Shown here in pieces: positions 39,166 through 58,344 of a stretch of DNA of 64,000 nucleotides. The notes beneath the pieces are model-generated. The model saw nothing but the letters and a program-made list of their open reading frames with translations, was not told where the DNA came from and ran no database searches. Within the stretch, counting starts at the first letter, position 1. Every line of letters starts with the position of its first letter. This DNA is from Novosphingobium sp. (GTDB taxonomy: Bacteria > Pseudomonadota > Alphaproteobacteria > Sphingomonadales > Sphingomonadaceae), in NCBI GenBank assembly GCA_016719755.1, contig JADJYM010000001.1:62001-126000 (forward strand), read 5' to 3'. The position numbers and the translations under genes were made by a program.

Positions 39166-39846
39166 ATGACGGTGCTCGGCACGAAAATGGTCTCTGACGG
39201 AAAGACCGCCAGGCAGATATTCGAAGCGGTGATGGCCAACCCGGCGCGGCGCAAGTTCGGCTTCGGCAGCAAGCTGGCCATCGTCAACGTCGATTTCCAG
39301 CGCGCCTATACCGATATTGCGGCCTTCCCCACCGCCTATGAAACCGATCCCCGGCAGATCGAACACGTCAACACCATCAGCCGTCTGGCGCGCGAACGCG
39401 CCATGCCGGTGATCTGGACCCGGGTGGCCTACAAGGCGGACGGCGGCGATGCCGGGGTCTGGGGCACGCGCACCGACACGCCGGATTCACTTCAGAACAT
39501 CAAGTATGACAGCGAGCGCCACCAGTATGATCCCCGGGTGGAAATCGGCGCGGACGATCTGCAATATACCAAGCGGATGCCCAGCGCCTTCTTCGAAACG
39601 CAGCTGGCCAGCTATCTGGTCTGGCACAAGGTCGATACGGTGGTGGTGACCGGCGGCAGCACCAGCGGCTGCGTGCGGGCGACGGCGGTCGACGCGTTGA
39701 GCCACGGCTACCGCACCATCGTTCCGATCGAGTGCTGCGCCGACAAGCATGAATCCTATCACTTTTCCAACCTGACCGACCTTCAGCTGAAATATGCCGA
39801 TGTGGAGCCGGTCCAGGCGGTGATCGACTGGCTGGAGGCGCGCTGA
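39166..39846 (+). CDS. Isochorismatase-fold amidohydrolase (N-carbamoylsarcosine amidase-like)
   Basis: 226 residues from the ATG at 39166, which follows GGAAAGGA. The cysteine-hydrolase fold shows Asp in LAIVNVDFQRAYTD, a Lys in LQYTKRMPSAFFET, and the nucleophile Cys with the cis-peptide in VVTGGSTSGCVRATAVDALS. This pattern is close to N-carbamoylsarcosine and maleamate amidases. It releases ammonia from an amide. It overlaps the next deacetylase-fold gene by one base (TGATG) and faces the alpha/beta hydrolase. It is a candidate for a half-amide or maleamate amidohydrolase, but substrate specificity is not visible. Confidence 0.88.
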   Translation: MTVLGTKMVSDGKTARQIFEAVMANPARRKFGFGSKLAIVNVDFQRAYTDIAAFPTAYETDPRQIEHVNTISRLARERAMPVIWTRVAYKADGGDAGVWGTRTDTPDSLQNIKYDSERHQYDPRVEIGADDLQYTKRMPSAFFETQLASYLVWHKVDTVVVTGGSTSGCVRATAVDALSHGYRTIVPIECCADKHESYHFSNLTDLQLKYADVEPVQAVIDWLEAR

Positions 39847-40724
39847 TGCGGGAAGGAGCGGGCGATCCCGGGCTCTACGATTTCCAGCCCTATCGCGGGC
39901 GGGGCAAGATTACCTGGCCGGGCGGCAAGACCGTGGCGGTGTGGGTTGCGCCCAATCTGGAGTATTACGAGATCGATCCGCCCGCGCATCCCCGGCGCAA
40001 GGCCTGGGCCAGGCCCCATCCCGATGTGGTCGGCTATGCCCACCGCGATCATTCCAACCGCGTGTCGCACTGGCGCATGGCCGAGGTGATGAGCAAGCAC
40101 GGCTTTCCGGGATCGGTCAGCCTGTCGGTCGCGCTGTGCCAGCACCACCCGGAAGTGGTTGCCGATGGCGCGGCGCGCGGCTGGGAATTCTTCAGTCACG
40201 GCATTTATAATACGCGCTATGCTTATGAAATGTCGGAAGAACAGGAACGCGAAATCATCGCGGATTCAATCCGCACCGTGCGCGAGGCGACCGGGCAGAC
40301 GATCCGTGGCTGGCTCGCCCCGGCACTGACCCATACGCCGCGCACGCTCGATCTGATCGCGGAAATGGGGCTGGATTACACTTGCGACCTGTATCACGAC
40401 GACCAGCCGCAGTGGGTGAAGGTGCGGCAGGGCAGCCTCGTTTCGATCCCCTACAGCCTTGAGGTCAACGATCACTACGGCTTCTTCGTCTACAACATGA
40501 GCCCGCGCGAATACGCCGATACGCTGATCCGGCAGTTCGAGCGGCTGGCGGCCGAGGGTGAGCAATCGGGAACGGTGATGTGCATCCCGCTGCACGCCTA
40601 CCTGATCGGTCAGCCGCACCGCATCGGTCCGTTCGAGGAGGCGCTGCGCCATATCGCCGCCGATGGCCGCGCGTGGATCGCGCGGGCCGGCGAAATCGTC
40701 GATGCCTGGAAAGGACAGCAGTGA
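39846..40724 (+). CDS. Polysaccharide-deacetylase-fold hydrolase (allantoinase/imidase-like), copy 1
   Basis: 292 residues from the ATG at 39846. NodB-type fold with VAVWVAPNLEYYEI, RVSHWRMAEVMSKHGFPGSV, WEFFSHGIYNTRYAYEMSEE and GQTIRGWLAPALTHTPRTLD. These segments match the PuuE (non-standard allantoinase) subgroup rather than chitin deacetylases. Its length agrees with the bacterial cyclic imide hydrolase of about 293 residues, which is the same subgroup as I recall it. Expected action is hydrolysis of a cyclic amide or imide. It overlaps the next gene by one base (TGATG) and forms a three-gene unit with the isochorismatase-fold enzyme. Confidence 0.85.
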   Translation: MREGAGDPGLYDFQPYRGRGKITWPGGKTVAVWVAPNLEYYEIDPPAHPRRKAWARPHPDVVGYAHRDHSNRVSHWRMAEVMSKHGFPGSVSLSVALCQHHPEVVADGAARGWEFFSHGIYNTRYAYEMSEEQEREIIADSIRTVREATGQTIRGWLAPALTHTPRTLDLIAEMGLDYTCDLYHDDQPQWVKVRQGSLVSIPYSLEVNDHYGFFVYNMSPREYADTLIRQFERLAAEGEQSGTVMCIPLHAYLIGQPHRIGPFEEALRHIAADGRAWIARAGEIVDAWKGQQ

Positions 40725-41644
40725 TGGCGCTCGATCCGGCCTATCTTGAGTACCCGCGCCGCCGCCACGGCTACGATCACGATCTCTATCCCTGGTCGGC
40801 GCTGCACCAGCGCCCGCCGGTGGCCTGGCCGGGCGGCAAGGGCGTGGCGGTGTGGCTGTGCGTCAGCCTGGAATGGTTCCCGATTCTGCCGCAGGACGCA
40901 CCCTTTCGCGCGCCGGGGCACATGCAGACCGCCTATCCCGACTATCGCCACTACACCGCGCGCGAATACGGGACGCGGATCGGGATGTACCGCCTGCTCG
41001 ATGCCTGCGCGAAGGCCGGGGTGCGGATGAGCGTGGCGACCAACGGCGCGATTGCCGAGCGCTATCCGCAGCTGGTGCGCGAGATTGTGGAGGCCGGGCA
41101 CGAGATCATCGCCCATTCGACCGACATGAACGGCACCATTGCCAGCGGTCTGCCGATCGAGGAGGAGCGCGCGTTGATCGCCGCCTCGCTCGATGCGCTT
41201 CAGGCCGTCACCGGCACACGGCCCGCAGGCTGGCTGTCAATCGCCCGCTCGCAAAGCTGGAATACCGTGAACCTGCTTGAAGAAGCGGGGTTAAGCTATT
41301 GCTGTGACTGGGTGAATGACGAACTTCCCTGGCGCTTTGCCAATGGCCTGATCAACCTGCCGCTCAATCACGAGCTGTCCGACCGGCAGGTCATCACCGT
41401 CCAGCAACAGTCGGTCGACAGCTATGCCCGGCAGATCGAGGACGCCTGCGACTGGCTGGCAGGCGAGGCGCGCAGCCATGGCGGGCGGATGCTGCCGATC
41501 CACCTGACGCCCTATATCTCCGCGCTGCCCTATCGGATCGACGCGATTGACGCGCTGCTCGCCCGGCTGGCGGCGCGCCAGGACACGTGGTTTGCCACCG
41601 GGGGAGAGATCGCCGCGTGCTGGGCCGGGCAGGTCAGCGCCTGA
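40724..41644 (+). CDS. Polysaccharide-deacetylase-fold hydrolase, copy 2
   Basis: 306 residues, clearly related to the preceding gene but diverged: VAVWLCVSLEWFPIL, YGTRIGMYRLLDACAKAGVR, GHEIIAHSTDMNGTI and GTRPAGWLSIARSQSWNTVN. Two tandem copies in one operon suggest either a heteromeric enzyme or successive steps. As for copy 1, the PuuE/imidase subgroup is the best fit; metal ligands of true deacetylases (DD...HxxxH) are partly replaced, as is normal in this subgroup. The stop overlaps the convergent gene by 11 bases. Confidence 0.82.
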   Translation: MALDPAYLEYPRRRHGYDHDLYPWSALHQRPPVAWPGGKGVAVWLCVSLEWFPILPQDAPFRAPGHMQTAYPDYRHYTAREYGTRIGMYRLLDACAKAGVRMSVATNGAIAERYPQLVREIVEAGHEIIAHSTDMNGTIASGLPIEEERALIAASLDALQAVTGTRPAGWLSIARSQSWNTVNLLEEAGLSYCCDWVNDELPWRFANGLINLPLNHELSDRQVITVQQQSVDSYARQIEDACDWLAGEARSHGGRMLPIHLTPYISALPYRIDAIDALLARLAARQDTWFATGGEIAACWAGQVSA

Positions 41645-42347: not shown

Positions 42348-42446
42348 GTGCCACTCCTGTCGGCATTGTTCATACGACAGGGCCCTGACTTGCCAAGCCG
42401 CTGGGGCGGCAAGCGTCTACTGTGCGGATAAGCGGGGAGACCACCG

Positions 42447-43130: not shown

Positions 43131-43152
43131 TCGCGCCGCGAGCGGGCACAGA

Positions 43153-44775: not shown

Positions 44776-44859
44776 GTCAGTCTTTCCTCTGCTGTGCGGC
44801 CGGACCTTGCGGGACCGGTCGCGCGGGCTTCTCCCCACAGCGGGTTCTTGCTTGTTGTA

Positions 44860-46372
44860 TCACAGTCCCAGCGCGCCGGGATTCATCCGGCCCTGCGGAT
44901 CGAGCCGGGCCTTCAGCGCCTGCAGGGCGCCCCAGGCGGCGGGATCGCTGCGCTGGCGCAGCGGATAGGTCCGGCCGATCTGGAAATGGATGCCCTCGTT
45001 CTCGCCGATCACCGCGATCACTCCGGCACGCAGCTTTTCCACCACGGCGCGCGCCTCGGGATTGGCGGGATAGTCGTTCAGCTTGGCCAGGTGTGCCGGT
45101 TCGATCGATGCGCGGTGCAGGGTGTGCAACTTGTCCGGCCAGTAGAAGCACGGCTCGATCAGGAAGCCGCTGGTCCCCACGGTCAGGAACAGATAGCCCG
45201 CCCCGATCGAGAAGCGCTCCATTTCCTCGGCATGGTCCTCGAACAGCCGGGTGAAACCGGCGATGGTCGATACCGCGCGGGAATGGCGCACGATCCCGTG
45301 GACCGGCAGCCAGCGTTCGCCGTTCGGCCCGGCCATCGAATTGGTCGGCGGGAAGGGGTTGGCGCGCAGGATCTTGGGCACGGTGTTTTCCACCTGGCGG
45401 CCGCGGTTCGCTTTCGACGATGGCCACGATCCGGCGCATATCCTCGTCCGCGGCGGCCTGGATCCGTCCCTCGCTGGTGCAGTGGATCGAGAACTTGGCC
45501 TCGTCGAGGAACGAGCGTCCGGCGGCAACAACCTTGGCCCCTTCCTTCACCGCGCGCCAGAACCCGCCCTGCGACTTCATCATGTTGACCAGCGATTTGG
45601 CATCGGCGGCCAGGCTGTCGCGCCGCATCCGCTGGGCGGTCAGGAACGGGTCGAAGCCGAAGGCCTCGCTGGCCAGGCCCTGGCGCGAGATTTCGCTCAT
45701 CGCCGCGCAGTAATCCTCGGGCGTGTCGAACGCGAAGGAACCATAGGCAAAGGCTTCCGCCTCGCGCATCAGCGGCAGAGTGATGTGCGCCTTGACGCCC
45801 AGCGCCCCGGCATCGGCGCAGAACAGGCCGGTGATATCCGGGCCGAAGCCGCGCAGGAAATGGTTGCCGGTATCGATCACCGATCCATCGGCCAGCACCA
45901 CCTTCATCGCCACCACGCCCTGCATGAAGGTGCCGTGCTGCCCGGCGCCCCAGAAGGTGCCGTTCTGGCTCATACCCCCGCCGACGCTGGCCTTGATGCC
46001 CGAAAGCGTGCCCCACAGCGGGGTGCGCAGGCCCAGCGGCTGAAGCGCCTCGTACAGCTGCTTCCAGCTGCACCCGGCCTCTACCGTCACGGTCATGTCG
46101 GCCTGATTGATGTCCAGCACGCGGTCCATCGCGCTCAGGTCCACCAGAATCGCCTGCGGATCGTCCTGGACATAGCCGCCGGTATAGCTCAGCCCCGCGC
46201 CGCGCGGGACGATGGCCAGGCCATCGCGCGCGGCGGCGGCGATCCCGGCGCTCAGTTCCTCGATCGAAGACGGGCGCAGCACCGCCTGGGGCAGGGCGCC
46301 GCGATTGTGGACGTCGTGGCTCATCGCCTCGCGCAGGGCTTCGTCGCGCAGCAGGGTAACGGGTTGGGTCAT
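44860..46372 (-). pseudogene. FAD-linked oxidase (VAO/GlcD type), frameshifted
   Basis: From the ATG at 46370-46372: LAIVPRGAGLSYTGGYVQDD, LWGTLSGIKASVGGGMSQNG and ITGLFCADAGALGVKAHITL are FAD-domain motifs shared with the truncated gene at 27656-28299. After EDMRRIVAIVESE (about 45407) the frame degenerates. An alternative frame supplies GRQVENTVPKILRANPFPP and the normal C-terminal substrate domain (IHFQIGRTYPLRQRSDP) to the stop at 44860-44862. The shift lies in 45399-45406 (GGCCGCGG). The restored protein would be about 504 residues. It overlaps the MFS stop by four bases. Confidence 0.88.
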
Positions 46373-47601
46373 GCCTGGCCTTCCAGCTTGTCGGGATAGC
46401 GGCCCATCAGCAGCAGCAGCGCGCCGCCCGCCACGAAAGCGATGGCGGCGGCGGTCAGGGCCGGGTCGTAGGACCCCGTGCGGTCACGGATCATGCCGTA
46501 GGCAACGGGGGAAATCGCGCTCATCAGCGCGAAGGGCATATAAAGGCTGCCATAGATGCGCCCGAACTGGGCCATGCCGAAATAGCGCGCGGCCATGAAG
46601 GCAATGAGGTCGGCCTCCGCGCCCGCCGCAAAGCCCAGCAGGAACGCCGCGAGCGAGATCTGCATGGCCGCGCTCGACGTGCCGAGCAGAAGTATGCAGG
46701 CAATCGCGGGCAGGCACAGCACCGGAAAGGCCACCGCCGGCCCCCAGAAACGGTCAAGCAGCAGGCCCACCGTTATCCGGCCGACCAGCAGGCCGGTGCC
46801 GACGATCCCCATGATCCCGGCCGCCGCACCAAGGCTGATGCCGTGGTCCTTGACGATCGCGGGCATATGGCTGTGCGCCCCGCCATAAGCCAGCGCGATC
46901 AGCAGGATCGAGCACCACAGCAGCCAGAACTGGCGGGTCTTCAGGGCCTCGCCAAACGCCATGCCGGTGGTGGTGCCGTCGCTTGCCTTCAGCTCGCCGG
47001 GCAGTTCATCGGCGCGCGGTTCGCGGAACAGGGCGATCACGGCGGGCAGGGCGATCAGCAGCGGCAGCAGGGCCACGGCGGGGAACACCGCGCGCCAGCC
47101 GCCGTTGGCCAGCGCCCAGACCGCGATGCGCGGGACGATGAACGCCGCCGCGCTGGTGCCCAGCAGCATGATCGCCAGCGCCAGGCCCCGGTTCTTCACG
47201 AACCACAGCGCGATGGCGCGGCTCCACACCACCGGGGTCGATCCGATCCCGACCAGCCCGACCACGAACCACAGCAGGTAGAACGCCGCGAGCGAGGGCG
47301 GGATCACGGCAAAGGCGGCGAAGCTGACGATAAACCCGATCAGCGAAAGGATGCCGACCTTGCGCACCCCGTGGCGATCGGCCAGCCCGCCATAGACCGG
47401 CGAAAGCAGCGCGGCGGTGACGCCGAAGATAGTGATGCCCAGGCTCACCTGGGTGCGGCTCCAGCCAAGCTCCGCCTCAAGCGGGGCGAGCAGGAAGCCC
47501 AGCACGTTGAACGGCAGCGGCGAGGCACCGCACATCGTGCCCAGGAAGCCCGCCAGCAGCGTCTTCCATCCGCCTGCAAATTCCGACCGGCCTTGCGCCA
47601 T
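46369..47601 (-). CDS. MFS transporter, oxalate/formate-antiporter-like
   Basis: 410 residues, twelve predicted membrane segments. The ATG at 47599-47601 (MAQGRSEFAGGWK) was chosen over an upstream in-frame start at 47664. Family features are LGWSRTQVSLGITIFG, the loop-2-3 motif GGLADRHGVRKVGIL (G-x-x-x-D-R-x-G-x-R) and ADLIAFMAARYFGMAQFGRI, typical of the monocarboxylate/OFA branch. It probably imports an organic acid substrate of the neighbouring operons. Its position at the head of the minus-strand unit (before the FAD oxidase and methyltransferase) and opposite the CoA-pathway operon supports that. Confidence 0.87.
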   Translation of the reverse strand: MAQGRSEFAGGWKTLLAGFLGTMCGASPLPFNVLGFLLAPLEAELGWSRTQVSLGITIFGVTAALLSPVYGGLADRHGVRKVGILSLIGFIVSFAAFAVIPPSLAAFYLLWFVVGLVGIGSTPVVWSRAIALWFVKNRGLALAIMLLGTSAAAFIVPRIAVWALANGGWRAVFPAVALLPLLIALPAVIALFREPRADELPGELKASDGTTTGMAFGEALKTRQFWLLWCSILLIALAYGGAHSHMPAIVKDHGISLGAAAGIMGIVGTGLLVGRITVGLLLDRFWGPAVAFPVLCLPAIACILLLGTSSAAMQISLAAFLLGFAAGAEADLIAFMAARYFGMAQFGRIYGSLYMPFALMSAISPVAYGMIRDRTGSYDPALTAAAIAFVAGGALLLLMGRYPDKLEGQA

Positions 47602-47747
47602 GGCGCTCCCTTTTCGTGCCCCTGATAAGCCGCAGCTAGGCCTTATCCGGGCGGCGCGCTCCATCGGGGCGGGGCATTTGGTCGCCTAGCGGATACAACC
47701 CGGCTGACAGGGTGGAAGGCGCGCGCGCTCCAACCAAAGGGGAGGAC
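47602..47747. promoter_or_regulatory. Divergent promoter region
   Basis: 146 bases between the divergent MFS gene and the 13-gene operon starting at 47748. It must contain promoters for both. The GGGGAGGA ribosome site of the plus-strand operon sits at 47739-47746. I cannot assign -35/-10 boxes or an operator confidently, and no regulator gene is encoded next to it. Confidence 0.4.
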
Positions 47748-48569: not shown

Positions 48570-49071
48570 TGGTGTTATCCAGGTTGGCCCGCAGCGTTAC
48601 CGCGAAACCTATGGCCGCTATTTCGAAGAGTTCCACGTCGGCGATATCTATGAACATCGCCCCGGCCGGACGATCACCGAGAACGACAATATCTGGTTCT
48701 CGCTGCTGACCATGAACCAGCATCCGTCGCACTGTGATGCCCATTTCGCCAGCCAGACCGAATTCGGCAAGCCGCTGGTCGCATCGCCGCTGACCGTGGC
48801 GATCATGACCGGGCAGAGCGTTTCCGACGTCAGCCAGAAGGCCGTGGCCAATCTTGGCTGGAAGGAAATCCGCCTGCTCAAGCCGGTGTTCGCGGGCGAT
48901 ACGCTCTATTCGGAATCCGAAGTGCTGGAAAAGCGCGAGAGCGAAAAGCGGCCGACGCAGGGGATCGTGACGATCAAGACCGTGGGCAAGAACCAGCGCG
49001 GCGAAGTGGTGTGCGATTTCACCCGCGTCATGCTGATCTGGAAGAAGGGCTTCGGCCCGATGGACGAATAA
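48562..49071 (+). CDS. MaoC-like enoyl-CoA hydratase (mesaconyl-/itaconyl-CoA hydratase type)
   Basis: 169 residues of the hotdog-fold MaoC family. The hydratase-2-like motif is TENDNIWFSLLTMNQHPSHC followed by DAHFASQTEFG, with the Asn/His/Asp arrangement used to add water to an alpha,beta-unsaturated CoA ester. The ending RVMLIWKKG is common in mesaconyl-CoA-hydratase-like members. It is coupled to the lyase upstream and the acyl-CoA dehydrogenase 15 bases downstream. Hydration of itaconyl- or mesaconyl-CoA to citramalyl-CoA would supply the CitE-like lyase. Confidence 0.87.
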   Translation: MRDGVIQVGPQRYRETYGRYFEEFHVGDIYEHRPGRTITENDNIWFSLLTMNQHPSHCDAHFASQTEFGKPLVASPLTVAIMTGQSVSDVSQKAVANLGWKEIRLLKPVFAGDTLYSESEVLEKRESEKRPTQGIVTIKTVGKNQRGEVVCDFTRVMLIWKKGFGPMDE

Positions 49072-49086
49072 GGAAGGCCCCGGACC

Positions 49087-50262
49087 ATGAGCGGCAGTTC
49101 CACCATCCGCCCCGCGATGCATCCCGACGACGAAGCGGCCCTGCTCGATTCGATCCAGAAGTGGATCGACAAGGACGTCCGACCGGTGGTGATGCACCAC
49201 GATCACGGCGACATCTGGCCCGAGGCGATCGTCGCCCAGATGACCGAAATGGGCCTGTTCGGCGCGACCATCGGCGAGGAATACGGCGGGCTGGGCCTGC
49301 CGGCCCAGACCTATGCCAAGATCGTGATGATGATCAGTTCCTACTGGATGGCGCTGACCGGCATTTTCAATTCGCACCTGATCATGTCCTGCGCGGTGGA
49401 ACGCTTTGGCACCGAGGCGCAGAAGCAGGCCTGGCTGCCCCGCTTTGCCAGCGGCGCAGTGCGCGGCGGGCTGGCCCTGACCGAACCCAACGCCGGAACC
49501 GACCTGCAATCGATCCGCACCACCGCGCGGCGCGATGGCGATCATTACGTGCTGAACGGGACCAAGACCTGGATCTCCAATTCGATCAACGGCAGCTGCT
49601 TTGCCCTGATCGCCAAGACCGATCCCAAGGCCGAGCCGCGCTACAAGGGGATGAGCTTTTTCATCGCCCCCAAGGGCGAAGGGCTGAGCGTCGGCAAGAA
49701 GTTCGACAAGCTGGGCTACAAGGCGATCGACAGCGCCGAACTGATCCTTGAAGACTATCGCATCCCGGCGGAAAACCTGATTGGCGGGGTTGAAGGGCAG
49801 GGCTTTTTCCAGGCCACCGGCGGGCTGGAGCTGGGCCGCATCAACGTGGCCGCGCGCGGGGTCGGGATTGCCGAGGGCGCGCTGCGGCTGGCGACCGAAT
49901 ATGCCCAGGTCCGCGAATCGATGGGCAAGCCGATTGCCGAGCATCAGGCGATCCAGCTCAAGCTGGGCGAAATGGTCACCCGCGCCCGCGCCGCCCGGCT
50001 GCTGACGCTGGATGCGGCCGCCGCCTATGACCGGGGCGAACGCTGCGACATGGAAGCGGGCATGGCCAAGTACTTCGCCTCCGAAGCCGGCGTGGCCAAC
50101 GCGCAGGATGCGATGCGGATCTTCGGCGGCTATTCCTATTCCAAGGAATACGAGATCGAACGCTATTACCGCGATGCCATGCTGATGTGCATCGGCGAAG
50201 GCACCAACGAAATGCAGCGGATCATCATTTCCAAGCAATGGGTCAAGCGGAACCCGGCATGA
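49087..50262 (+). CDS. Acyl-CoA dehydrogenase
   Basis: 391 residues. FAD-dependent enzyme introducing an alpha,beta double bond in an acyl-CoA. Visible: EEYGGLGLPAQTYAKIVMMI, GLALTEPNAGTDLQSIRT, HYVLNGTKTWISNS, the FAD loop RESMGKPIAEHQAIQLKL, and GEGTNEMQRIIISKQ with the catalytic Glu. The ATG at 49087 follows AGGAAGG. The stop overlaps the CoA-transferase start by four bases. In the pathway it may act on methylsuccinyl- or a related branched dicarboxylyl-CoA, feeding the hydratase. Confidence 0.92.
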   Translation: MSGSSTIRPAMHPDDEAALLDSIQKWIDKDVRPVVMHHDHGDIWPEAIVAQMTEMGLFGATIGEEYGGLGLPAQTYAKIVMMISSYWMALTGIFNSHLIMSCAVERFGTEAQKQAWLPRFASGAVRGGLALTEPNAGTDLQSIRTTARRDGDHYVLNGTKTWISNSINGSCFALIAKTDPKAEPRYKGMSFFIAPKGEGLSVGKKFDKLGYKAIDSAELILEDYRIPAENLIGGVEGQGFFQATGGLELGRINVAARGVGIAEGALRLATEYAQVRESMGKPIAEHQAIQLKLGEMVTRARAARLLTLDAAAAYDRGERCDMEAGMAKYFASEAGVANAQDAMRIFGGYSYSKEYEIERYYRDAMLMCIGEGTNEMQRIIISKQWVKRNPA

Positions 50263-51458
50263 GCGAGAGCCGCGCCCTTCCGCTTGCGGGCTTCCGCGTG
50301 CTCAGCGCCGAACAGTACGGCGCCGGGCCTTATGGCACGCTGTTCCTGGCCCAGCTGGGGGCAGAGGTCATCAAGATCGAACCGCCCAGGGGCGGCGATA
50401 CCGCGCGCGGGGTGGGGCCGCATTTCCTGCGTGACGGGGAAAGCCTTTATTTCCAGACCTTCAACCTCAACAAGCGTTCGATCACGCTCGATCTGGCGAG
50501 CGAGCGCGGGCAGGCGGTGCTGCACCGGCTGGTGGCGCGCAGCCACGCGGTGGCCAACAACCTGCGCGGCGACGTGCCGGGGCGGGTGGGCCTGACTTAC
50601 GAAGCGCTGAAACACGTCAATCCGGCGATCGTCTGCGCCCATGCATCGGCCTATGGCCGCGACAATCCGCGCGCCAGGTGGCCGGGCTATGACTATCTCG
50701 CCCAGGCCGAAGCGGGGTTCTGCGCCCTGACCGGAGAGCCGGACGGACCGCCCGCGCGCTTTGGCCTGTCGATGGTCGATTTCATGACCGGCACCCAGAT
50801 GGCGGTCGGCCTGCTGGCCGCGCTGCTCGATGCCCAGCGCAGCGGGGTGGGGCGCGATGTCGATGTCGATCTCTATTCGGCGGCGCTGCACCAGCTGACC
50901 TATCCGGCGGTATGGTACATGAACAAGGGCGACGTCACGCAGCGGGTGCCGCGGTCGGCCCATCCTTCGGCCACCCCCAGCCAGATGTTCCGCGCGGCGG
51001 ACGGCTGGATGTTCGTGATGGCCCAGATTCCCAAGTTCTGGCCGATCCTGTGCGAACGCATCGGCCACGCCGAACTGATCGCCGACCCGCGCTTTGCCGG
51101 GCCTGCGGACCGGCTGGCCAACCGCGCCGTGCTGACCGAGATCCTGGACGGGATATTCTCAGCCGCGCCGGTTGCGCACTGGCAGGGCCTGCTGGAAGGA
51201 CACGTTCCGGTCGCGCCGGTTTATGAACTGGACCAGGCGCTGGACAACCCGTGGGTCGATGCCGTGGGGATGCGCCAGCACGTGCCCCATCCCGACCTGC
51301 CCGATATGCAGGTGCTGGCCAGCCCGATCCGGCTGGACGGGCAGCGGCTCCCGGCGCGCGCCGCGCCGTTTCTGGGCGAGGATACGGACGAGGTGCTGGG
51401 CGAAAGCGGCTTCACACCGGATGAGATCGCCCAGCTGCGCGATGCCGGAGCGATCTGA
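50259..51458 (+). CDS. Class III CoA-transferase, copy 1 of pair
   Basis: 399 residues from the ATG at 50259. CaiB/BaiF fold: FRVLSAEQYGAGPYGTLFLA, AEVIKIEPPRGGDTARG and FQTFNLNKRSITLDLASERG at the N-terminus; catalytic Asp in GYDYLAQAEAGFCALTGEPD. Class III members use succinyl-CoA or another donor to activate dicarboxylates such as itaconate or mesaconate. Its place directly after the dehydrogenase, and the tandem second transferase, suggest either a heterodimer or two substrates. The gap to the next gene is three bases. Confidence 0.92.
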   Translation: MSESRALPLAGFRVLSAEQYGAGPYGTLFLAQLGAEVIKIEPPRGGDTARGVGPHFLRDGESLYFQTFNLNKRSITLDLASERGQAVLHRLVARSHAVANNLRGDVPGRVGLTYEALKHVNPAIVCAHASAYGRDNPRARWPGYDYLAQAEAGFCALTGEPDGPPARFGLSMVDFMTGTQMAVGLLAALLDAQRSGVGRDVDVDLYSAALHQLTYPAVWYMNKGDVTQRVPRSAHPSATPSQMFRAADGWMFVMAQIPKFWPILCERIGHAELIADPRFAGPADRLANRAVLTEILDGIFSAAPVAHWQGLLEGHVPVAPVYELDQALDNPWVDAVGMRQHVPHPDLPDMQVLASPIRLDGQRLPARAAPFLGEDTDEVLGESGFTPDEIAQLRDAGAI

Positions 51459-51461
51459 CCC

Positions 51462-52544
51462 ATGGGCAAGCTGAGCGGGATCACGGTGGTCGATCTTTCG
51501 GTGTTCCTGCCGGGGCCGATGATGACCATGATGATGGCCGATCAGGGCGCCGAGGTGTGGAAGGTGGAAAGCCCCAGCGGCGATCCCGCGCGCGAACAGG
51601 CCCCGTTCGAAGGCGGCCAGTCGGTATGGTTCCGCAATCTCAACAGGGCCAAGAAAAGCGTGGCGCTCGACCTCAAGACCGAGGCCGGACAGGCGCGGCT
51701 GTGGGAACTGATCGAACGCGCGGACGTGTTCGTCGAAGGGTTCCGTCCCGGCGTGATGCGGCGGCTGGGGTTCGATTATGCCGCCGTTTCGGCGCGCAAT
51801 CCCCGGATCGTCTATTGCTCGATTTCCGCCTTCGGGCAGGAGGGCGAGCTGGCCCACCATCCCGCTCATGACATGGCGACCCAGGCGCTGGCCGGGTTCC
51901 TTTCGGTCAACGACGGGCCGGACGGCACTCCGGTGGTGCCGGGGGTTCCCGCCGCCGACATGGGCGCCGGGCTGACCGCGCTGTCGGCCACGCTGATGGC
52001 GCTGATCGGGCGCGAGCGCACCGGGCGCGGCGATTACATCGACTGCGCGATGTTCGACAGCCTGCTGCCGTGGTGCTCGCACACCGTGGGCATGGCCCTG
52101 GCGGGGGGCGAACCGCCGCGTTCGGCCACGCAGCGTTCGCTGGGCGGGGCGGCGTTCTATCAGGTCTATGCCACCGCCGATGGCCGCCACGTGGTGCTGG
52201 GCGGTCGCGAACCGAAGTTTGCCGCGAACCTGCTGGGCGCGCTGGAGCGGATCGACCTGCTGCCCATCACCGAACGCCCGGCGGGCGAGCAGGGTGAACT
52301 GATCGCCTTTCTGCGGGATACCTTCGCCAGCCGCACCCGTGACGAATGGGTTGCCTGGTTCGCCGACAAGGACGTGGCGTTTTCGCCCGTGCTGGATTTC
52401 CGCGAAGCCTTTGCCCAGCCGCACATTGCCGAACGCGGCCTGCTGATCGAGGCGGGGGGCGGGCACATGATCGCCCCGGCGATCCGCTTTGCGGGTGAGG
52501 AATGGCATCCGGCCCCCGCGCCCGAACTTGGCGCGGACGGCTAG
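51462..52544 (+). CDS. Class III CoA-transferase, copy 2 of pair
   Basis: 360 residues, with the CaiB/BaiF core: ITVVDLSVFLPGPMMTMMMA, AEVWKVESPSGDPAREQAPF and the catalytic Asp in HPAHDMATQALAGFLSVNDG. It is related to, but clearly different from, copy 1 and about 40 residues shorter, mainly at the C-terminus. Such tandem pairs occur for enzymes that form alpha-beta heteromers. It precedes the MmgE/PrpD gene by 11 bases. Confidence 0.9.
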   Translation: MGKLSGITVVDLSVFLPGPMMTMMMADQGAEVWKVESPSGDPAREQAPFEGGQSVWFRNLNRAKKSVALDLKTEAGQARLWELIERADVFVEGFRPGVMRRLGFDYAAVSARNPRIVYCSISAFGQEGELAHHPAHDMATQALAGFLSVNDGPDGTPVVPGVPAADMGAGLTALSATLMALIGRERTGRGDYIDCAMFDSLLPWCSHTVGMALAGGEPPRSATQRSLGGAAFYQVYATADGRHVVLGGREPKFAANLLGALERIDLLPITERPAGEQGELIAFLRDTFASRTRDEWVAWFADKDVAFSPVLDFREAFAQPHIAERGLLIEAGGGHMIAPAIRFAGEEWHPAPAPELGADG

Positions 52545-52555
52545 GGCCGCGCGGC

Positions 52556-53848
52556 ATGACCCCGACTGCCCGCCTGCTTGCCTTCGCCGCCGCTCCGCAC
52601 GTTCTGCCCGGTTCCGTCCGCGCCGATTGCGAGCGGCTGGTGGCCGATACGCTGGCGGTAGGCGCGGCGGGCTGGACCGCGCCGGGCATGGCGGGCGTGC
52701 TCGCCGTGGCGCGCGGCTGGGGCGAAGGGGCCGAAGCGCGGCTGCTGGGCGAGGCGGATGCGCGCCTGCCCGCCGGGGCCGCCGCCTATGCCAACTGCTT
52801 TGCTATCCATTGCCTGGAATGGGACGCGGTCCACGAAGGGGCGGTGTGCCATGCGCTGACTGCGGTGGTCCCCGCCGTGCTGGCCGTGGCCGACCGCCGG
52901 GGCGGGGCCGCGCTGGATGATATGCTCACCGCGATCGCGGTGGGGGTCGATGTCGCTAGCGGGCTGGGGATCGCGGCGGACAGCGCGCTCAGCTTTTTCC
53001 GTCCGGCAACCGCAGGGATTTACGGCGCGGCGCTGGCGGCGGCGCGGATCGCGGGCCTGCCCGCCGCCGCCTTTGCCGATGTGCTGGGACTTGCCCATGC
53101 CCATGCCGCCGGGACCATGCAGGCCCACAGCGAAGGCTCCATCGCCCTGCCGCTGCAACTGGCCAATGCCGCGCGCGGCGCGGTCCACGCGGTCGATCTC
53201 GTCCGCCATGGTCTGACCGGCCCGCACGACGTGCTGCAAGGTCCGTTCGGCCACTTCAGCCTGTTCGAGCGGGGCGATCTGGCGCGGTATACCGGCGGGC
53301 TGGGGCAGGTCTGGCGGATATCGGAGATCAGCACCAAGCCGTTCCCCTCGGGCCGGGCCAGCCACGCCGCGCTGGGCGCGCTGGCGGAATTTGCCGGACG
53401 CGAGGTGGCGGGGGTGCAGCTCCACGTGCCGCCGCTGATCCGGCACCTTGTCGGTCGGCCCGCCTTGCCGGACATGACGGCGGCCTATGCCCGGCTGTGC
53501 CTGCCGTTCCTCGCCGCGCTGATGCTGACCGACGGGCAGATCGATCCGCGCCGGTTCACGGCTCCGGTCTTTGCCGATGCGGCGCTTCAGGCCCTCGCCG
53601 CGCGGGTGGAGCTGGTGGACGATGGCAATGCGGATCCCAACGCGCTCTCGCCGCAGCGCCTGATCGTGACGCTGGCTGACGGGACGCGGATCGAGCGCTC
53701 CGTGCCGGCCACGCTGGGCTCGCCCTTGATGCCGCTTGGTGCCGTTGAGGCGCGGGTCAAAGCCGCTCTGTGCCGCTCACTCGCCCCTCCCGGCCACGAT
53801 CCGCGCCTTTTCGCAGCCCCGATGGCCTATCTGACGGACCCGACATGA
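52556..53848 (+). CDS. MmgE/PrpD family protein
   Basis: 430 residues. This family includes 2-methylcitrate dehydratase (PrpD) and cis-aconitate decarboxylase (itaconate former). Recognised segments are CFAIHCLEWDAVHEGAVCHA (the conserved HxxDxDD-like region, here HCLEWD), FFRPATAGIYGAALAAARIA, and STKPFPSGRASHAALGALAE. In bacterial itaconate clusters an MmgE/PrpD gene is a regular companion. The ATG at 52556 is chosen as the longer frame starts inside the transferase. The stop overlaps the ligase start by four bases. Confidence 0.88.
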   Translation: MTPTARLLAFAAAPHVLPGSVRADCERLVADTLAVGAAGWTAPGMAGVLAVARGWGEGAEARLLGEADARLPAGAAAYANCFAIHCLEWDAVHEGAVCHALTAVVPAVLAVADRRGGAALDDMLTAIAVGVDVASGLGIAADSALSFFRPATAGIYGAALAAARIAGLPAAAFADVLGLAHAHAAGTMQAHSEGSIALPLQLANAARGAVHAVDLVRHGLTGPHDVLQGPFGHFSLFERGDLARYTGGLGQVWRISEISTKPFPSGRASHAALGALAEFAGREVAGVQLHVPPLIRHLVGRPALPDMTAAYARLCLPFLAALMLTDGQIDPRRFTAPVFADAALQALAARVELVDDGNADPNALSPQRLIVTLADGTRIERSVPATLGSPLMPLGAVEARVKAALCRSLAPPGHDPRLFAAPMAYLTDPT

Positions 53849-55215
53849 GCTATCCTACCTACTTCGAAGCCTTCGATATCAAGCAGTTGCTGGCCGATTA
53901 TCCGGTCGGCGACGCGTTCGTGGCACGCTATGCCAAAATCAGCCGCGACGAACTTTTCGCGCTGCAGGACGCCCGCTTTCGTCAGCTGATGCGGCGCGGC
54001 TGGGAGATTCCCTTCTACCAGCGGTTGTGGGGCGCCATGGGCATAGAGGCAGGCGATATCAATGGCTTGGCTGATATTGCCAAGCTGCCGACCTATGACA
54101 AGTCGGACCTCATGGCCTCGATCGCGGCGCACCCGCCCTACGGTGATTTCGCGGGCCTTGGCGGCGCCAACCGCCCCCCGGCGATTCTCCACACCACCTC
54201 CGGCACCACCGGCCGCCCCCAGACCCTGCTGTTCGGCCCCAAGGGCCGCGAAGTGGGCAATTTGCTGGTCGGGCGGCTCTATCGCTGGCTTGGCCTGCAG
54301 CCTTCGGACGTGGTCCATTCGGTCTACGGCCACGGCATGATCAACGGCGGCCACTATATCCGCGAGGCCGTAACCCATTATACCAACTCGCTATTCCTGT
54401 CCGCAGGGACAGGGATAGAAACCCGTTCGGCCCAGCAGGTGCAACTGATGGCTGACTTTGGCGTCACGGTCGCGGTGGGCTTTGTCGACTATCTGCGCAA
54501 GCTGGCCGATACGGCCCGCGCCGAAGGGCTGATGGACCGGATCAATCTGCGCATGATCATCGGCCACCTCGGCACCGAAGACCGCGCCGCCACCGAGGCC
54601 GCCTGGGGCGGGGCCAAGGCCTATGACTGGTACGGGGTTGGCGATACCGGCTCGATCGCTGGCGAAGGGCCGGACCGTGACGGGCTCTATGTCTGGGAAG
54701 ACGCGCACTATCTTGAGCTTCTGGATGTCGACAGCGGCGCCCCGGTTGCCCCGGGCGGCACGGGGGACATGGTGGTGACCTGCCTCTACAAGGATGACAT
54801 CGCCCCCTGCATCCGCTTCAACACCCACGACATTACCCATGTCCTGGACGGGCAGGGCGAGATCGCGTTCCAGCGCATTGCCGGGTTCAAGGGGCGCAGC
54901 GACAACATGGTCAAGCTGCGCGGGATTAACCTGTTTCCCCACGCGGTCGGCGCACTGATCGAGAACCGCGCCGATCTGACTGGCGAGTATGTCTGCAAGG
55001 TCGTTCGCGATCCGGCGAGCCAGCGCGACGACATGACGGTGCTGATCGAAAGCCGCGGCGGGACCGATGCGGCGGAACTGGGCGAAGTGCTGCGGCGCGG
55101 ACTGGGCGTGGAAGTGCGGGTGGAGCTTTGCGCGCCCGGCAGCACCGCGCCGCTGACCCAGTTGGAAGTGCGCCAGAAGCCGCTGCGGCTGATCGACGAG
55201 CGCGGACTCAAATGA
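53845..55215 (+). CDS. Phenylacetate-CoA-ligase-like adenylating enzyme
   Basis: 456 residues of the ANL superfamily, PaaK-like branch. The ATP loop is HTTSGTTGRPQTL, the A5-like motif is DWYGVGDTGSIAG, and the C-terminal hinge/second-domain segment is FKGRSDNMVKLRGINLFPHA. It would activate a carboxylate to its acyl-AMP and then acyl-CoA. It overlaps the MmgE/PrpD stop and the amidase start, both by four bases. The carboxylate substrate is unknown; an acid released by the amidase next to it is an attractive candidate. Confidence 0.9.
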   Translation: MSYPTYFEAFDIKQLLADYPVGDAFVARYAKISRDELFALQDARFRQLMRRGWEIPFYQRLWGAMGIEAGDINGLADIAKLPTYDKSDLMASIAAHPPYGDFAGLGGANRPPAILHTTSGTTGRPQTLLFGPKGREVGNLLVGRLYRWLGLQPSDVVHSVYGHGMINGGHYIREAVTHYTNSLFLSAGTGIETRSAQQVQLMADFGVTVAVGFVDYLRKLADTARAEGLMDRINLRMIIGHLGTEDRAATEAAWGGAKAYDWYGVGDTGSIAGEGPDRDGLYVWEDAHYLELLDVDSGAPVAPGGTGDMVVTCLYKDDIAPCIRFNTHDITHVLDGQGEIAFQRIAGFKGRSDNMVKLRGINLFPHAVGALIENRADLTGEYVCKVVRDPASQRDDMTVLIESRGGTDAAELGEVLRRGLGVEVRVELCAPGSTAPLTQLEVRQKPLRLIDERGLK

Positions 55216-56372
55216 CCGATTTTCAGGCCCTTGCCAGCGCCAACGCACCCTACGGAGCCTTCGTCGAGTTCGATTCCGGGGCGAACGGCGGAGCCGGTCC
55301 GCTGGGCGGGGTGACACTGGGCGTTAAGGCCAACATCATGGTCAAGGGACTGGCCTGGACCGCCGGCATGGAGCTTTACCGCACCCGCCGCGCGCACCGC
55401 GACGCGGCGGCAGTGGCGCTGCTGCGTGCGGCAGGGGCCGAAGTGCTGGGCACGCTTAACATGCACGAAGCCGCGCTGGGGGCGCATGGCGACAACCCGT
55501 TCTATGGAACCTGCCACAATCCCCGCCGCGCGGGCTTTTCGCCGGGCGGCTCGTCAAGCGGGAGCGCGGCAGCGGTGGCGGCAGGGCTGTGCGACCTGGC
55601 GCTGGGCACCGACACGCTGGGATCGATCCGCATCCCCGCCGCCTATTGCGGCGTCTATGGCCTTAAACCCACACACGGCGCGGTGAGCCAGGACGGGCTT
55701 GCCTGCCTTGAGCCCGAATTCGACTGCATCGGCCCGCTGGCCCGGTCGCTCGATCTGATAGAGCGGTGCTGGGCCGTGCTCTCGCCCGCCAGCCCGCCCC
55801 CGCCCCCGGTGCCGCTGCGGCGGATGCTGGTGCTGGACGGGCTGGGCGCAGTTACATGCGAACCGGCGGTCTTGTCAGCCTACGAAGCGGCACTCGCCCA
55901 GGCCAGACTGCCGCGAGAAACCCTGGCCCTGGCCGATGATGCGGCCGCGATCCGCCGCGCCGGGCTGGCCCGCGCCGGACAATGGCTGCTGCGCGATATG
56001 GGGCCGCTCTATCGTTCGGACAGTCCGCACTTTTCCGAAGAACTGCATTTCATCCTGGGGGCCTGTGCCCGGATGGCGCCGCAGGGTGAAGTGCTGGAAC
56101 GCACGCGGACCGCGCTGCACACCGCACTGGGCGATGATGGCGTGCTGATCCTGCCCACCGCGCCGCAGCCAGCCTTTGCCCACGGCACCCGTCCTCCGGC
56201 CAACCAGGCTGATTTTACCGCGCTGGCCTCTGTCGCAGGCCTGCCCGCACTGTCGATTCCGGCGGGCTGCGAGGCAGGCGGATTGCCTGTTGGCGTCCAG
56301 CTGGTCGGGCCGATGGGTTCGGAAAATGCGCTGATTGCACTGGCGCGACAGATCGAAGCGAAGGGAGATTGA
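55212..56372 (+). CDS. Amidase signature family hydrolase
   Basis: 386 residues, a little short of the usual 450-500. The Ser-cisSer-Lys triad is visible: Lys in TLGVKANIMVKG, cis-Ser in SPGGSSSGSAAAVAAG, and nucleophile Ser in GTDTLGSIRIPAAYCGVYGL (where most members have GTDTGGS). It releases ammonia or an amine from an amide in the cytoplasm. A possible role is the half-amide step that follows ring opening by the deacetylase-fold enzymes. It sits between the ligase gene and a small HapK-like gene, two bases from the latter. Confidence 0.9.
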   Translation: MTDFQALASANAPYGAFVEFDSGANGGAGPLGGVTLGVKANIMVKGLAWTAGMELYRTRRAHRDAAAVALLRAAGAEVLGTLNMHEAALGAHGDNPFYGTCHNPRRAGFSPGGSSSGSAAAVAAGLCDLALGTDTLGSIRIPAAYCGVYGLKPTHGAVSQDGLACLEPEFDCIGPLARSLDLIERCWAVLSPASPPPPPVPLRRMLVLDGLGAVTCEPAVLSAYEAALAQARLPRETLALADDAAAIRRAGLARAGQWLLRDMGPLYRSDSPHFSEELHFILGACARMAPQGEVLERTRTALHTALGDDGVLILPTAPQPAFAHGTRPPANQADFTALASVAGLPALSIPAGCEAGGLPVGVQLVGPMGSENALIALARQIEAKGD

Positions 56373-56375
56373 CCT

Positions 56376-56681
56376 ATGCGTATCGTGGTACTCTTCAACC
56401 TCAAGCCGGGCGTCGATCCGGCCGCCTATGAAGCCTGGGCGCGCGGCACCGACATTCCGGGGGTCAATGCGCTGTCTTCGGTTGATCGGTTTTCAGTGCA
56501 CCGGGCGACCGGCCTGTTCGGCAGCGATGCGCCTTCACCCTACCAGTATGTCGAGGTGATCGACATCGCCGCGCTCGATCCCTTCGTCGCCGAGATTTCG
56601 ACCGAGGCCTTTCAAAAGGTCGCCGCGGCCTTTGGTGACTTTGCGGAGAATCCCCAGTTCATCATGACGGAAGACCTGTGA
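56376..56681 (+). CDS. HapK/RedY-like small protein
   Basis: 101 residues with the ferredoxin-like dimeric alpha/beta barrel pattern of RedY-like/HapK proteins: MRIVVLFNLKPGVDPAAYE, GVNALSSVDRFSVHRATGLF and YQYVEVIDIAALDPFVAEI. Relatives act in prodigiosin (HapK, RedY) and polyketide-like pathways with no settled chemistry. Its presence in a catabolic operon is unexpected, and it may stabilise or isomerise an unstable intermediate. It overlaps the SDR gene by one base (TGATG). Confidence 0.78.
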   Translation: MRIVVLFNLKPGVDPAAYEAWARGTDIPGVNALSSVDRFSVHRATGLFGSDAPSPYQYVEVIDIAALDPFVAEISTEAFQKVAAAFGDFAENPQFIMTEDL

Positions 56682-57478
56682 TGGGCCGCTTTGCGGGCAA
56701 GACCGTGGTGGTGACCGGTTCGGGCCGACAGAAGGGACTGGGGCAGGCGATCCTCCAGCGCTTTGCCGACGAGGGCGCCAACTGCGTGGTGTCCGACCGT
56801 CATTTGGGCGAAGAGGCCGAGGCCGTTGCCGAAGACCTGCGCGCGCGCGGCGCGAGGGTTGCGGCCATCGCCTGCGACGTGGCGGACCCGGACCAGTGCG
56901 AGGCGCTGGTGCAGGGTGCGGTGGAAGCGTTTGGCGGGATCGACGTGTTCGTCAACAACGCCGGGATCGGCTTCATGATGACCCCGCTGCTGGAGGTGAA
57001 GGCGGCGGATTGGCAAACCGTGATCGGCGTGAACCTGTCCGGCGCGTTCCATTGCACCCAGGCAGCGGCGCGGGCGATGATCGCGCGCGGATCGGGAGGG
57101 CGGATCATCAACATCGCCAGCCAGGCCGCCAAGACCGGCTTTCCGCACCTGGCCGCCTATGTGAGTTCGAAGCACGGGATGATCGGCCTGACCCGCGCCT
57201 CGGCAATCGAGCTGGGCGGGCACGGTATCACGGTCAACGCGGTCTGCCCCAATCACGTCACGACTGCGCTGGGGGCGGAGCAGAACGCCTATTTCTCGAA
57301 GCTGCTCGGCTTTGATACGGTAGAGGCTTACCTTGCCAACATGAGCGCCAAGAACCCGATGGGGCGCCCCGGGCTGCCCGGCGACACTGCGGCGACCTGC
57401 GCCTGGCTGGCGAGCGCGGACGCGGGCTACATCACGGGCGAGGCGATCAACGTTTCGGGCGGCGAGGAGATGCACTGA
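56681..57478 (+). CDS. Short-chain dehydrogenase/reductase (SDR)
   Basis: 265 residues. Classical SDR signature: glycine-rich TGSGRQKGLGQAI, DVADPDQ, NNAGIGF, catalytic Ser in IINIASQAAKTG and the YxxxK motif YVSSKHGM. It uses NAD(P)(H) to interconvert an alcohol and a ketone. The ATG at 56681 is preferred over GTG at 56678. It overlaps the downstream deacetylase-fold gene by one base. The substrate may be a hydroxylated intermediate of the same pathway. Confidence 0.92.
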   Translation: MGRFAGKTVVVTGSGRQKGLGQAILQRFADEGANCVVSDRHLGEEAEAVAEDLRARGARVAAIACDVADPDQCEALVQGAVEAFGGIDVFVNNAGIGFMMTPLLEVKAADWQTVIGVNLSGAFHCTQAAARAMIARGSGGRIINIASQAAKTGFPHLAAYVSSKHGMIGLTRASAIELGGHGITVNAVCPNHVTTALGAEQNAYFSKLLGFDTVEAYLANMSAKNPMGRPGLPGDTAATCAWLASADAGYITGEAINVSGGEEMH

Positions 57479-58344
57479 TGCGCGAAGAGCGGATGGACTG
57501 GCCGAACGGTGCCCGGATCGCGCTGTCGGTCGTGGTCAATGTCGAGGAGGGCTCCGAACAGTCGGTCCTGCGCGGTGATCGCGGGATGGAACCGGTCGAC
57601 GAACTGGGCATTTTCATCAAGGGCCCGATCCGCAATTATTCAAACGAATCCAATTACCTTTACGGGATCAAGGCCGGGGCGCCACGGATCGTCAAGCTGC
57701 TGCGTCGCTATGACATCATGGCCAGCTGGACCGTTGCCGCGCAGAGCCTGGAAAACCATCCCGAAATCGCCGCTGCGATCGTCGAGCTGGGACACGAGCC
57801 GGTCAGCCATGGCTGGCGCTGGCTGCACCAGTTCCGCATGGACGAGGCGCAGGAGCGCGAGTTCATCCGGAAAGCCGTCGCCTCGATCGAGCGGACCTGC
57901 GGGCGCCGCCCCTCCGGCTGGCTGTCGCGCTATATGCTGACCGACAACACCCGCCGGCTGCTGGTGGAAGAGGGTTTTGCCTATCACATGGACGATTACT
58001 CGGGCGACGTTCCCTTCTGGGACCGGGACACCGTGCCGGGCAGGCCCATCGCCATCGTTCCCTACCAGGTCGACAACAACGACATGAAGATGTGGACCGA
58101 TCCGGCCGTCTCGCCCCATGCCTGGCTCGACTATGCGAAGGCGAATTTCGACCAGCTGTACCGCGAGGGCGAAGAGGGCAATCCCAAGATGATGTCGCTG
58201 GGGCTGCATCTGCGGATCATCGGGCGTCCCGGGCGGGTCTGGGCGCTCGAGGAGTTCTTCCGCCACGTCCGCTCGCACGGCGATGTCTGGATTGCCAGCC
58301 GCGAGGAAATCGCCGCCCATCTCGCCAAGGTTGAACCGGCGTGA
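57478..58344 (+). CDS. Polysaccharide-deacetylase-fold hydrolase, copy 3
   Basis: 288 residues, related to the two genes at 39846-41644. Landmarks are VVVNVEEGSEQSVLRGD, PRIVKLLRRYDIMASWTVAA, HEPVSHGWRWLHQF, GRRPSGWLSRYMLTDNTRRL and LHLRIIGRPGRVWALEEF, again the PuuE/imidase subgroup. As the third copy of this fold within 20 kb it makes hydrolysis of a cyclic amide or imide a central theme. The stop codon overlaps the next GTG start by four bases (GTGA). Confidence 0.85.
   Translation: MREERMDWPNGARIALSVVVNVEEGSEQSVLRGDRGMEPVDELGIFIKGPIRNYSNESNYLYGIKAGAPRIVKLLRRYDIMASWTVAAQSLENHPEIAAAIVELGHEPVSHGWRWLHQFRMDEAQEREFIRKAVASIERTCGRRPSGWLSRYMLTDNTRRLLVEEGFAYHMDDYSGDVPFWDRDTVPGRPIAIVPYQVDNNDMKMWTDPAVSPHAWLDYAKANFDQLYREGEEGNPKMMSLGLHLRIIGRPGRVWALEEFFRHVRSHGDVWIASREEIAAHLAKVEPA

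Follow-up and report, generated by a model that had tools for sequence, protein, structure and literature searches.

A Novosphingobium gene island with PuuE-type hydrolases and a probable role in converting cyclic imides to small acids

Background

The described systems closest to the locus treated here are PuuE allantoinase (PDB entries 3cl6 and 1z7a), the N-carbamoylsarcosine and maleamate amidohydrolases, the nicotinate fermentation of Eubacterium with its dimethylmaleate hydratase and dimethylmalate lyase, the HxnM/HxnN pair of the Aspergillus nicotinate pathway, and the itaconate/methylsuccinate cluster ict-ich-ccl-mcd-mmgE. The locus itself is a catabolic gene island of Novosphingobium sp., a soil and water bacterium. 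It lies in the window, by which we mean the whole stretch of 64,000 nucleotides that was analysed (contig 1, positions 62001-126000, of a 3.7-Mb genome), and it holds genes for three PuuE-type proteins, here P1, P2 and P3, and for two amidases, the isochorismatase-fold enzyme IsoC and an amidase-signature enzyme (Table 1). The island probably converts cyclic imides to small acids that serve the cell as fuel.

With PuuE allantoinase the window proteins share the fold (models of P1 and P2), the Glu/His/His residues (P1 and P3) and the lack of an HxxxH metal site, but they stay under the cut-off of the PuuE model, P2 is eroded, and the genes are linked to dicarboxylate genes. IsoC has the Asp-Lys-Cys triad and the fold of the N-carbamoylsarcosine and maleamate amidohydrolases, but it reaches no NCBIfam equivalog and its partners are PuuE-type. 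LeuCD hydrates substituted maleates in leucine synthesis. In the Eubacterium system a LeuCD-type hydratase goes together with an isocitrate-lyase/PEP-mutase-type gene, as it does beside the IsoC-P1-P2 trio in the plasmids pJE1 and TomTYG65, whereas an HMG-CoA-lyase-like gene and a coenzyme A (CoA) transferase gene are found instead in the window. The HxnM/HxnN pair, as described in excerpts of PMC9304392, follows the same proposed logic of imide opening by a deacetylase-fold enzyme and subsequent half-amide hydrolysis. The closest structural relative of HxnM given there is HpPgdA, in which the metal His pair is kept; with HpPgdA as proxy, HxnM differs from the window proteins, which are without this pair and match HpPgdA weakly (expectation values, E, of 7.5e-9, 1.7e-5 and 2.6e-18). 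According to excerpts of PMC12290011, the itaconate/methylsuccinate cluster comprises CoA transferase, hydratase, lyase, dehydrogenase and MmgE families, and the same families stand in one run in the window. The window run differs in that it also holds PuuE, amidase, SDR, HapK, ECH and VOC genes, in its scores with the RipB and RipC models, which are under the cut-offs, and in an MmgE protein that seems to be without the earlier Lys and the Tyr/His pair.

Proposed pathway

We propose, tentatively and with slightly less than even credence, that the island carries two linked modules that open a nitrogen ring, release ammonia and send the dicarboxylate into CoA chemistry. In module A, P1 as the catalytic member and the degenerate P2, probably united in one heteromer, would perform a metal-free ring opening on a cyclic imide of the substituted-maleimide type. 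IsoC would then remove ammonia from the half-amide, LeuC/LeuD would hydrate the substituted maleate, CaiB3 would form the CoA ester and the HMG-CoA-lyase-like enzyme would cleave it, so that the chain would run from imide over half-amide, alkylmaleate, alkylmalate and CoA ester to cleavage. In module B, P3 would open a substituted succinimide, the amidase would remove ammonia, and CaiB1/CaiB2, the acyl-CoA dehydrogenase, MaoC and HpcH would degrade the alkylsuccinate by the methylsuccinate/itaconate route, with an acyl-CoA and a 2-oxo acid as end products. Observed are the gene content, the conservation of gene order, the state of the active-site motifs and the model folds of P1 and P2; we infer every substrate, the order of the steps, the P1:P2 complex and the partner of P3. 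The route from imide over half-amide and dicarboxylate to CoA ester is a hypothesis with good support; a half-amidase and dicarboxylate genes beside PuuE-type genes are what an imide predicts.

PuuE-type proteins and the P1/P2 pair

Genes were called by codon-position G+C, and families were assigned with Pfam and NCBIfam profiles. The five hydrolase genes that a sequence-only reading had placed at 39166, 39846, 40724, 55212 and 57478 are present at these sites by their Pfam matches, and each has an in-frame ATG there. The last four starts overlap the stop of the preceding gene, which holds for the trio 39166/39846/40724, overlapping stop to start, and likewise for 55212 and 57478. The PF01522 matches of P1, P2 and P3 all exceed the Pfam cut-off. 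The description of all three copies as PuuE-like applies most strongly to P3 (E 1.1e-66 versus PuuE 3cl6) and more loosely to P1 (PuuE match E 9.7e-26) and P2 (best solved match 3rxz with E 6.2e-20; PuuE 4.3e-19). With the PuuE model TIGR03212 (cut-off 424.6) P3, P1 and P2 reach 252.5, 119.9 and 93.2 bits, respectively, all far below. The AlphaFold models of P1 and P2 (predicted local distance difference test 86.4 and 83.9) have 1z7a/3cl6 and 3cl6, respectively, as best PDB folds.

The second His of the HxxxH motif is absent in all three proteins (P1 SHGIYN, P2 AHSTDM, P3 SHGWRW versus AHGYSH in HpPgdA), being replaced by N, M and W, respectively, and the Asp-His-His metal triad of carbohydrate esterase family 4 is incomplete in each. 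P1 and P3 keep E, H and H of the metal-free PuuE motif, whereas P2 is without the last His. HpPgdA binds metal and PuuE does not, as stated in excerpts of PMC3084791. Taking the HpPgdA site as proxy, we reject the metal-dependent cyclic imide hydrolase that had been suggested for P1, P2 and P3, since the second metal His is missing from every copy. Judged by their sequences, the three belong to the PuuE side of the deacetylase family and are unlike an ordinary allantoinase or a metal-dependent imidase. Nor do they look like three equal enzymes, as had been assumed: P2 carries Thr where PuuE has the last catalytic His.

Trio loci were compared in a set of 80, the best 80 of 325, picked by similarity to P1 (39846); because of this selection, counts on them describe close relatives only. 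In the sphingomonad set, E39, H118, N122 and H250 of P1 are each kept in 84 of 84 sequences. In P2 (numbered from 40715), E53 and H134 are kept in 75/76; where the last catalytic His would stand, 74/76 have Thr, and a His two residues before this site is retained in 67/76. With other lineages and a phylum sample added, E/H/H is intact in all 23 first proteins and in 4 of the 22 second proteins, whose losses differ by lineage (Glu in 3, the first His in 6, the last His in 13). The 23 first proteins form one clade in the tree (support 0.97); the 22 second proteins do not. P1 and P2 adjoin each other in 80/80 loci of the genome collection and in 9/10 distant genomes. As the simplest reading of these sequences, P1 and P2 may be one heteromeric enzyme with a degenerate subunit; alternatively, P2 may have another chemistry. 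We know of no PuuE-type enzyme with a pseudo-subunit, although no paper search was made on this question; P1/P2, if a heteromer, would be one.

The trio and its neighbours

The nearest solved chains of IsoC are 4l07/4l08, then the N-carbamoylsarcosine amidohydrolases 26st and 1nba, followed by 3ot4, which we take to be the maleamate amidohydrolase NicF. Its Asp-Lys-Cys triad (D in 74/76 with 2 gaps, K and C in 76/76 each) identifies it as a cysteine amidohydrolase of the isochorismatase fold. The order IsoC-P1-P2 is found in 79 of the 80 related loci. The sole locus without IsoC (L080) is a true exception, as 981 bases precede the P1 match and no IsoC occurs anywhere. The IsoC-PuuE-PuuE arrangement is more than chance.

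Neighbours were counted in the 61 of the 80 loci that have at least 9 kb on both sides (full-flank loci). CaiB3 is present in 44 of these, the HMG-CoA-lyase-like gene in 46 and LeuC in 44, and all three stand together beside the trio in 44/61, in agreement with the link of the hydrolases to dicarboxylate/CoA enzymes that the sequence-only reading had drawn. Also found beside the trio are an alpha/beta hydrolase (33/61), the FAD-linked oxidase (29/61) and an MFS transporter (21/61). Other matches to LeuC in the same genome are 48% and 33% identical, and the 48% one is a further LeuC outside the window. CaiB, HMG-CoA lyase, trio and LeuCD occur together on the pJE1, TomTYG65 and Acidiphilium plasmids, the first two of which additionally carry the isocitrate-lyase/PEP-mutase-family gene mentioned above. 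Literature searches found no paper on the trio's enzyme combination and none on strain JE1.

The P3 operon

P3 is part of a gene run in the order HpcH, MaoC, acyl-CoA dehydrogenase, CaiB1, CaiB2, MmgE/PrpD, CoA-ligase-like, amidase, HapK, SDR, P3, ECH and VOC, in which homologues of ict, ich, ccl, mcd and mmgE lie together at 47712-53848. The operon recurs in the genus, gene for gene in two relatives, G079 and G062, which have two genes more, and partially in G042 and in G058, where it meets a contig end, so that for P3, too, the proposed link to dicarboxylate/CoA genes stands. In Tistrella, P3, MmgE, the dehydrogenase and both CoA transferases are found together, and the acyl-CoA dehydrogenase copy near the P3 orthologue is 70% identical.

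The Lys/Ser/Ser motif and the PF01425 match place the amidase in the amidase signature family. Its link to P3 is limited to the window and to G079, G062 and G042, since P3 has no such gene next to it in Tistrella or in G237, a distant genome from the phylum sample. The two amidases do not make up a single pair: IsoC goes with P1/P2 and the amidase-signature enzyme with P3.

For (S)-(R)-methylsuccinate isomerase, excerpts of PMC12290011 name the residues His88, Glu91, His102, Tyr148, His152, Lys202 and Lys266. The window MmgE has HxxEx10H and one Lys near the later site, and it has no Lys at the site that is Lys in the adjacent paralogue of G079. At the place corresponding to 52502-52600, between CaiB2 and PrpD, G079 and G062 have two additional genes, one of them GntR-like and the other a further MmgE/PrpD-like one, both of which are absent from the window; the two MmgE/PrpD paralogues of these genomes seem to keep different active-site parts. 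The labels GntR and TonB in unannotated loci are readings of sequence. A literature query for HapK in Sphingo- gave no title on the subject among the matches listed.

Linkage and distribution of the modules

Among 148 genomes of relatives, own genome included, P3 has matches at E 1e-60 in 20, of which 15 (41-47% identity) were taken as other PuuE proteins and five (own, G042, G058, G062 and G079; 78-100% identity, in G042 for residues 1-175 only) as orthologues. P1 is present in 33/148, including four of the five genomes with a P3 orthologue (Fisher p 0.009, or 0.032 without the own genome; not corrected for kinship). P1 and P3 lie on one contig in G079, 49 kb apart. In the distant G237 the trio adjoins, back to back, the run HapK-SDR-P3-HpcH-MaoC-dehydrogenase-CaiB1-CaiB2, and FAD oxidase, nitrilase-type and PEP-mutase genes lie within 15 kb; amidase, PrpD, ligase-like and VOC genes were not found in the G237 stretches read. 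Modules A and B belong together.

The phylum sample, 398 genomes queried with the P1 homologue of Burkholderia plantarii, is less biased than the 80 loci. A P1-type match was obtained in 11/398, own genome included. At the 10 distant loci, IsoC is beside P1 in six, dicarboxylate-type genes are present in five, and an amidase-signature gene adjoins P1 or P2 in two. The presence of P1-type genes in 33/148 relatives and 11/398 sampled genomes of the phylum indicates that the process is not a rare one.

On a Variovorax paradoxus megaplasmid, MmgE/PrpD, PuuE-like, enoyl-CoA hydratase, CoA transferase and amidase genes form one run (L126:12226-17910), 16 kb from a cysteine hydrolase-PuuE-PuuE trio that goes with an amino acid ABC transporter. 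We regard this as a parallel rather than the same module, because the PuuE of the run (27% identical to P3, 30% to P1 and P2) is not a P3 orthologue and the cysteine hydrolase is only distantly like IsoC.

Several observations weigh against the proposed two-module imide pathway. The scheme assigns no role to HapK, SDR, ECH, VOC, the FAD oxidase or the ligase-like gene. HpcH and MaoC match RipC and RipB best, both under the cut-off (204.9 versus 375 and 225.3 versus 340), and the window MmgE seems to be without the earlier Lys and the Tyr/His pair (no YxxxH), as judged by spacing and by an alignment that included no isomerase sequence. At E 1e-4, amidase, CoA-ligase-like and VOC genes were not found in the Tistrella and G237 stretches, nor were HpcH and MaoC in that of Tistrella. 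The set of LeuC, HMG-CoA lyase and CaiB3 is absent from 17 of the 61 full-flank loci, seven of which have PrpD and HapK and ten neither set, and in 0/61 do the two sets stand together. Four of the ten distant P1 loci are without an adjoining IsoC, one is without P2 and five are without any dicarboxylate-type gene sought. Finally, the second protein has an intact E/H/H in L148, L156, L157 and Variovorax.

Alternative readings

The first alternative takes the PuuE-type proteins for sugar deacetylases, or for enzymes that open rings of another kind (lactams, lactones, pyridones) in a larger compound, with imides never being intermediates. Nitrilase-type hydrolases (30 loci) and the FAD-linked oxidase (36 loci) recur around the trio, as do TonB receptors (annotated in pJE1, read from sequence in 15 loci), but enzymes of this fold require the metal triad to deacetylate sugars, and it is incomplete in all three proteins, and half-amidase and dicarboxylate genes next to PuuE-type genes match the imide expectation. 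We regard this alternative as unlikely, though deserving serious weight. Whichever reading holds, the substrate is likely to be a larger nitrogenous compound with several C-N bonds, because nitrilase-type hydrolases, TonB receptors, FAD oxidase and hydantoinase genes recur.

Allantoin is a substituted hydantoin, and a second alternative would have the PuuE-type proteins open a substituted hydantoin and IsoC act as N-carbamoyl amino acid hydrolase, while the other enzymes break the carbon chain. The nearest named solved relatives of IsoC are indeed N-carbamoylsarcosine amidohydrolases, and in pJE1, Salipiger, Acidiphilium and G435 a trio has hydantoinase A/B genes no more than about 30 kb away. 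However, LeuCD, the CoA transferases and the HMG-CoA-lyase-like and methylsuccinate-type genes fit dicarboxylates, not amino acids, no aminotransferase or amino acid dehydrogenase is among the nameable recurrent neighbour clusters, and the one hydantoinase B of the own genome is on another contig, which leaves this route rather improbable. Purine catabolism, with at least P3 as an ordinary PuuE allantoinase, is very improbable: P3 has the metal-free motif in common with two annotated PuuE proteins, at identities of 41.5% and 44%, but it falls short of the PuuE model by the score given above, forms with its orthologues a clade apart from the two PuuE sequences and sits in a dicarboxylate operon, and neither allantoicase nor OHCU decarboxylase was found in the genome (positive controls match, including the Pseudomonas allantoicase; the allantoate amidohydrolase route was not searched).

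A candidate source of the imides

A speculative candidate, which we consider quite doubtful, is that the island serves to degrade pyrrole rings that stem from tetrapyrroles (breakdown products of chlorophyll, haem or bilins). Each ring would arrive as a substituted maleimide, such as methyl-vinyl-maleimide or haematinic imide, or as a succinimide, and would be opened by one of several PuuE-type modules, among them a heteromeric one; amidases would free the nitrogen, and LeuCD- and methylsuccinate-type enzymes would burn the alkyl-dicarboxylates. If true, this would account for several ring-opening modules in one cluster, for the TonB receptors and for one environmental source of methylsuccinate. 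Maleimides are degradation products of tetrapyrrole pigments according to excerpts of PMC8669743, a paper on the bacterial change of porphyrins, and in these excerpts Sphingo- is not mentioned. Entry of haem via haem oxygenase is rejected, as PF01126 has no match in 5/5 genomes while controls match; exogenous bilins or imides are unaffected by this.

Methylsuccinate itself has been inferred to matter in the environment (excerpts of PMC12290011, 2025). A ring hydrolase and an amidase within a methylsuccinate-type operon propose cyclic imides as a source of it.

Gene content of the window

The left end of the window holds the core genes NusA, IF-2, TruB and PNPase, followed by mobile-element genes and then by the catabolic genes (Table 1). 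Recombinase, integrase and transposase genes at 21328-27644 mark the edge of the catabolic island, where a short FAD_binding_4 gene (27601-28299) lies next to a DDE transposase gene. The real start of the HMG-CoA-lyase-like gene is near 35840, because the domain begins at residue 105 of the open reading frame (ORF).

Table 1. Genes of the island with position, strand and profile matches
Feature	Position	Strand	Evidence
CaiB3, family III CoA transferase, trio module	33744..34925	-	PF02515; best NCBIfam succinate--glutarate CoA-transferase, under cut-off
HMG-CoA-lyase-like protein (ORF)	34922..36151	-	NF004283 266.6 bits, cut-off 246
LeuD-like small subunit, proposed substituted-maleate hydratase	35839..36447	-	TIGR00171 173.9 bits, cut-off 116.25
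LeuC-like large subunit	36429..37787	-	NF009116 634 bits over 531; TIGR00170 496 under 560
Alpha/beta hydrolase	37792..39150	-	PF00561
IsoC, isochorismatase-fold cysteine amidohydrolase (D43-K136-C169)	39166..39846	+	PF00857 9.4e-28 (part of longer ORF)
P1, PuuE-type hydrolase, probable catalytic member of the pair (E39, H118, H250; N122 for second metal His)	39846..40724	+	PF01522 6.5e-9
P2, PuuE-type partner, eroded active site (T265, M138; numbered from 40715)	40724..41644	+	PF01522 1.1e-9 (containing ORF)
FAD-linked oxidase (FAD_binding_4)	44777..46372	-	PF01565
MFS transporter	46369..47664	-	PF07690
HpcH, citramalyl-CoA-lyase-like (best match RipC/Ccl)	47712..48569	+	NF038242 204.9 bits, cut-off 375
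MaoC, itaconyl-CoA-hydratase-like (best match RipB/Ich)	48562..49071	+	NF038241 225.3 bits, cut-off 340
Acyl-CoA dehydrogenase, at the position of methylsuccinyl-CoA dehydrogenase	49087..50262	+	PF00441, PF02770, PF02771
CaiB1 CoA transferase	50187..51458	+	PF02515
CaiB2 CoA transferase	51462..52544	+	PF02515
MmgE/PrpD family protein	52502..53848	+	PF03972, PF19305
Phenylacetate-CoA-ligase-like protein, weak match	53770..55215	+	PF14535 28.3 bits, cut-off 25
Amidase-signature hydrolase (K39, GGSSSG at 112, GSIRIP)	55212..56372	+	PF01425 4.1e-73 (containing ORF)
REDY-like HapK family protein	56376..56681	+	PF11639
SDR oxidoreductase	56678..57478	+	PF13561
P3, PuuE-type hydrolase (E, H, H kept; W for second metal His)	57478..58344	+	PF01522 8.2e-12
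Enoyl-CoA hydratase/isomerase family (ECH)	58341..59093	+	PF00378
VOC-fold protein	59090..59992	+	PF00903

Near the trio, 43211-44838 encodes a 126-residue protein without Pfam match (38/61 full-flank loci) and a methyltransferase with a long N-terminal part (37/61). A family of small proteins, c7, has 63 copies in 43 loci around the trio (e.g. L029:7354-7857) and none in the window; a link to bilins through c7 was not used, the match to DUF3598_N being sub-threshold (E 0.0057). To the right of the window, L136:3654-9551 has genes read as TonB receptor, 2-hydroxypentadienoate hydratase, acetaldehyde dehydrogenase and 4-hydroxy-2-oxovalerate aldolase.

The right end of the window carries an FAD monooxygenase gene and an Amdase-family gene (61093-63095). 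A role as maleate isomerase is doubtful for the latter (62349, PF17645), since no Cys is seen at what we take to be the positions of the catalytic Cys pair. In G435 (L160) such an FAD monooxygenase/Amdase pair is followed by a further PuuE-like gene, an aldehyde dehydrogenase gene and hydantoinase A/B genes; this run, which lies 13 kb past the trio, is possibly a third ring-opening module.

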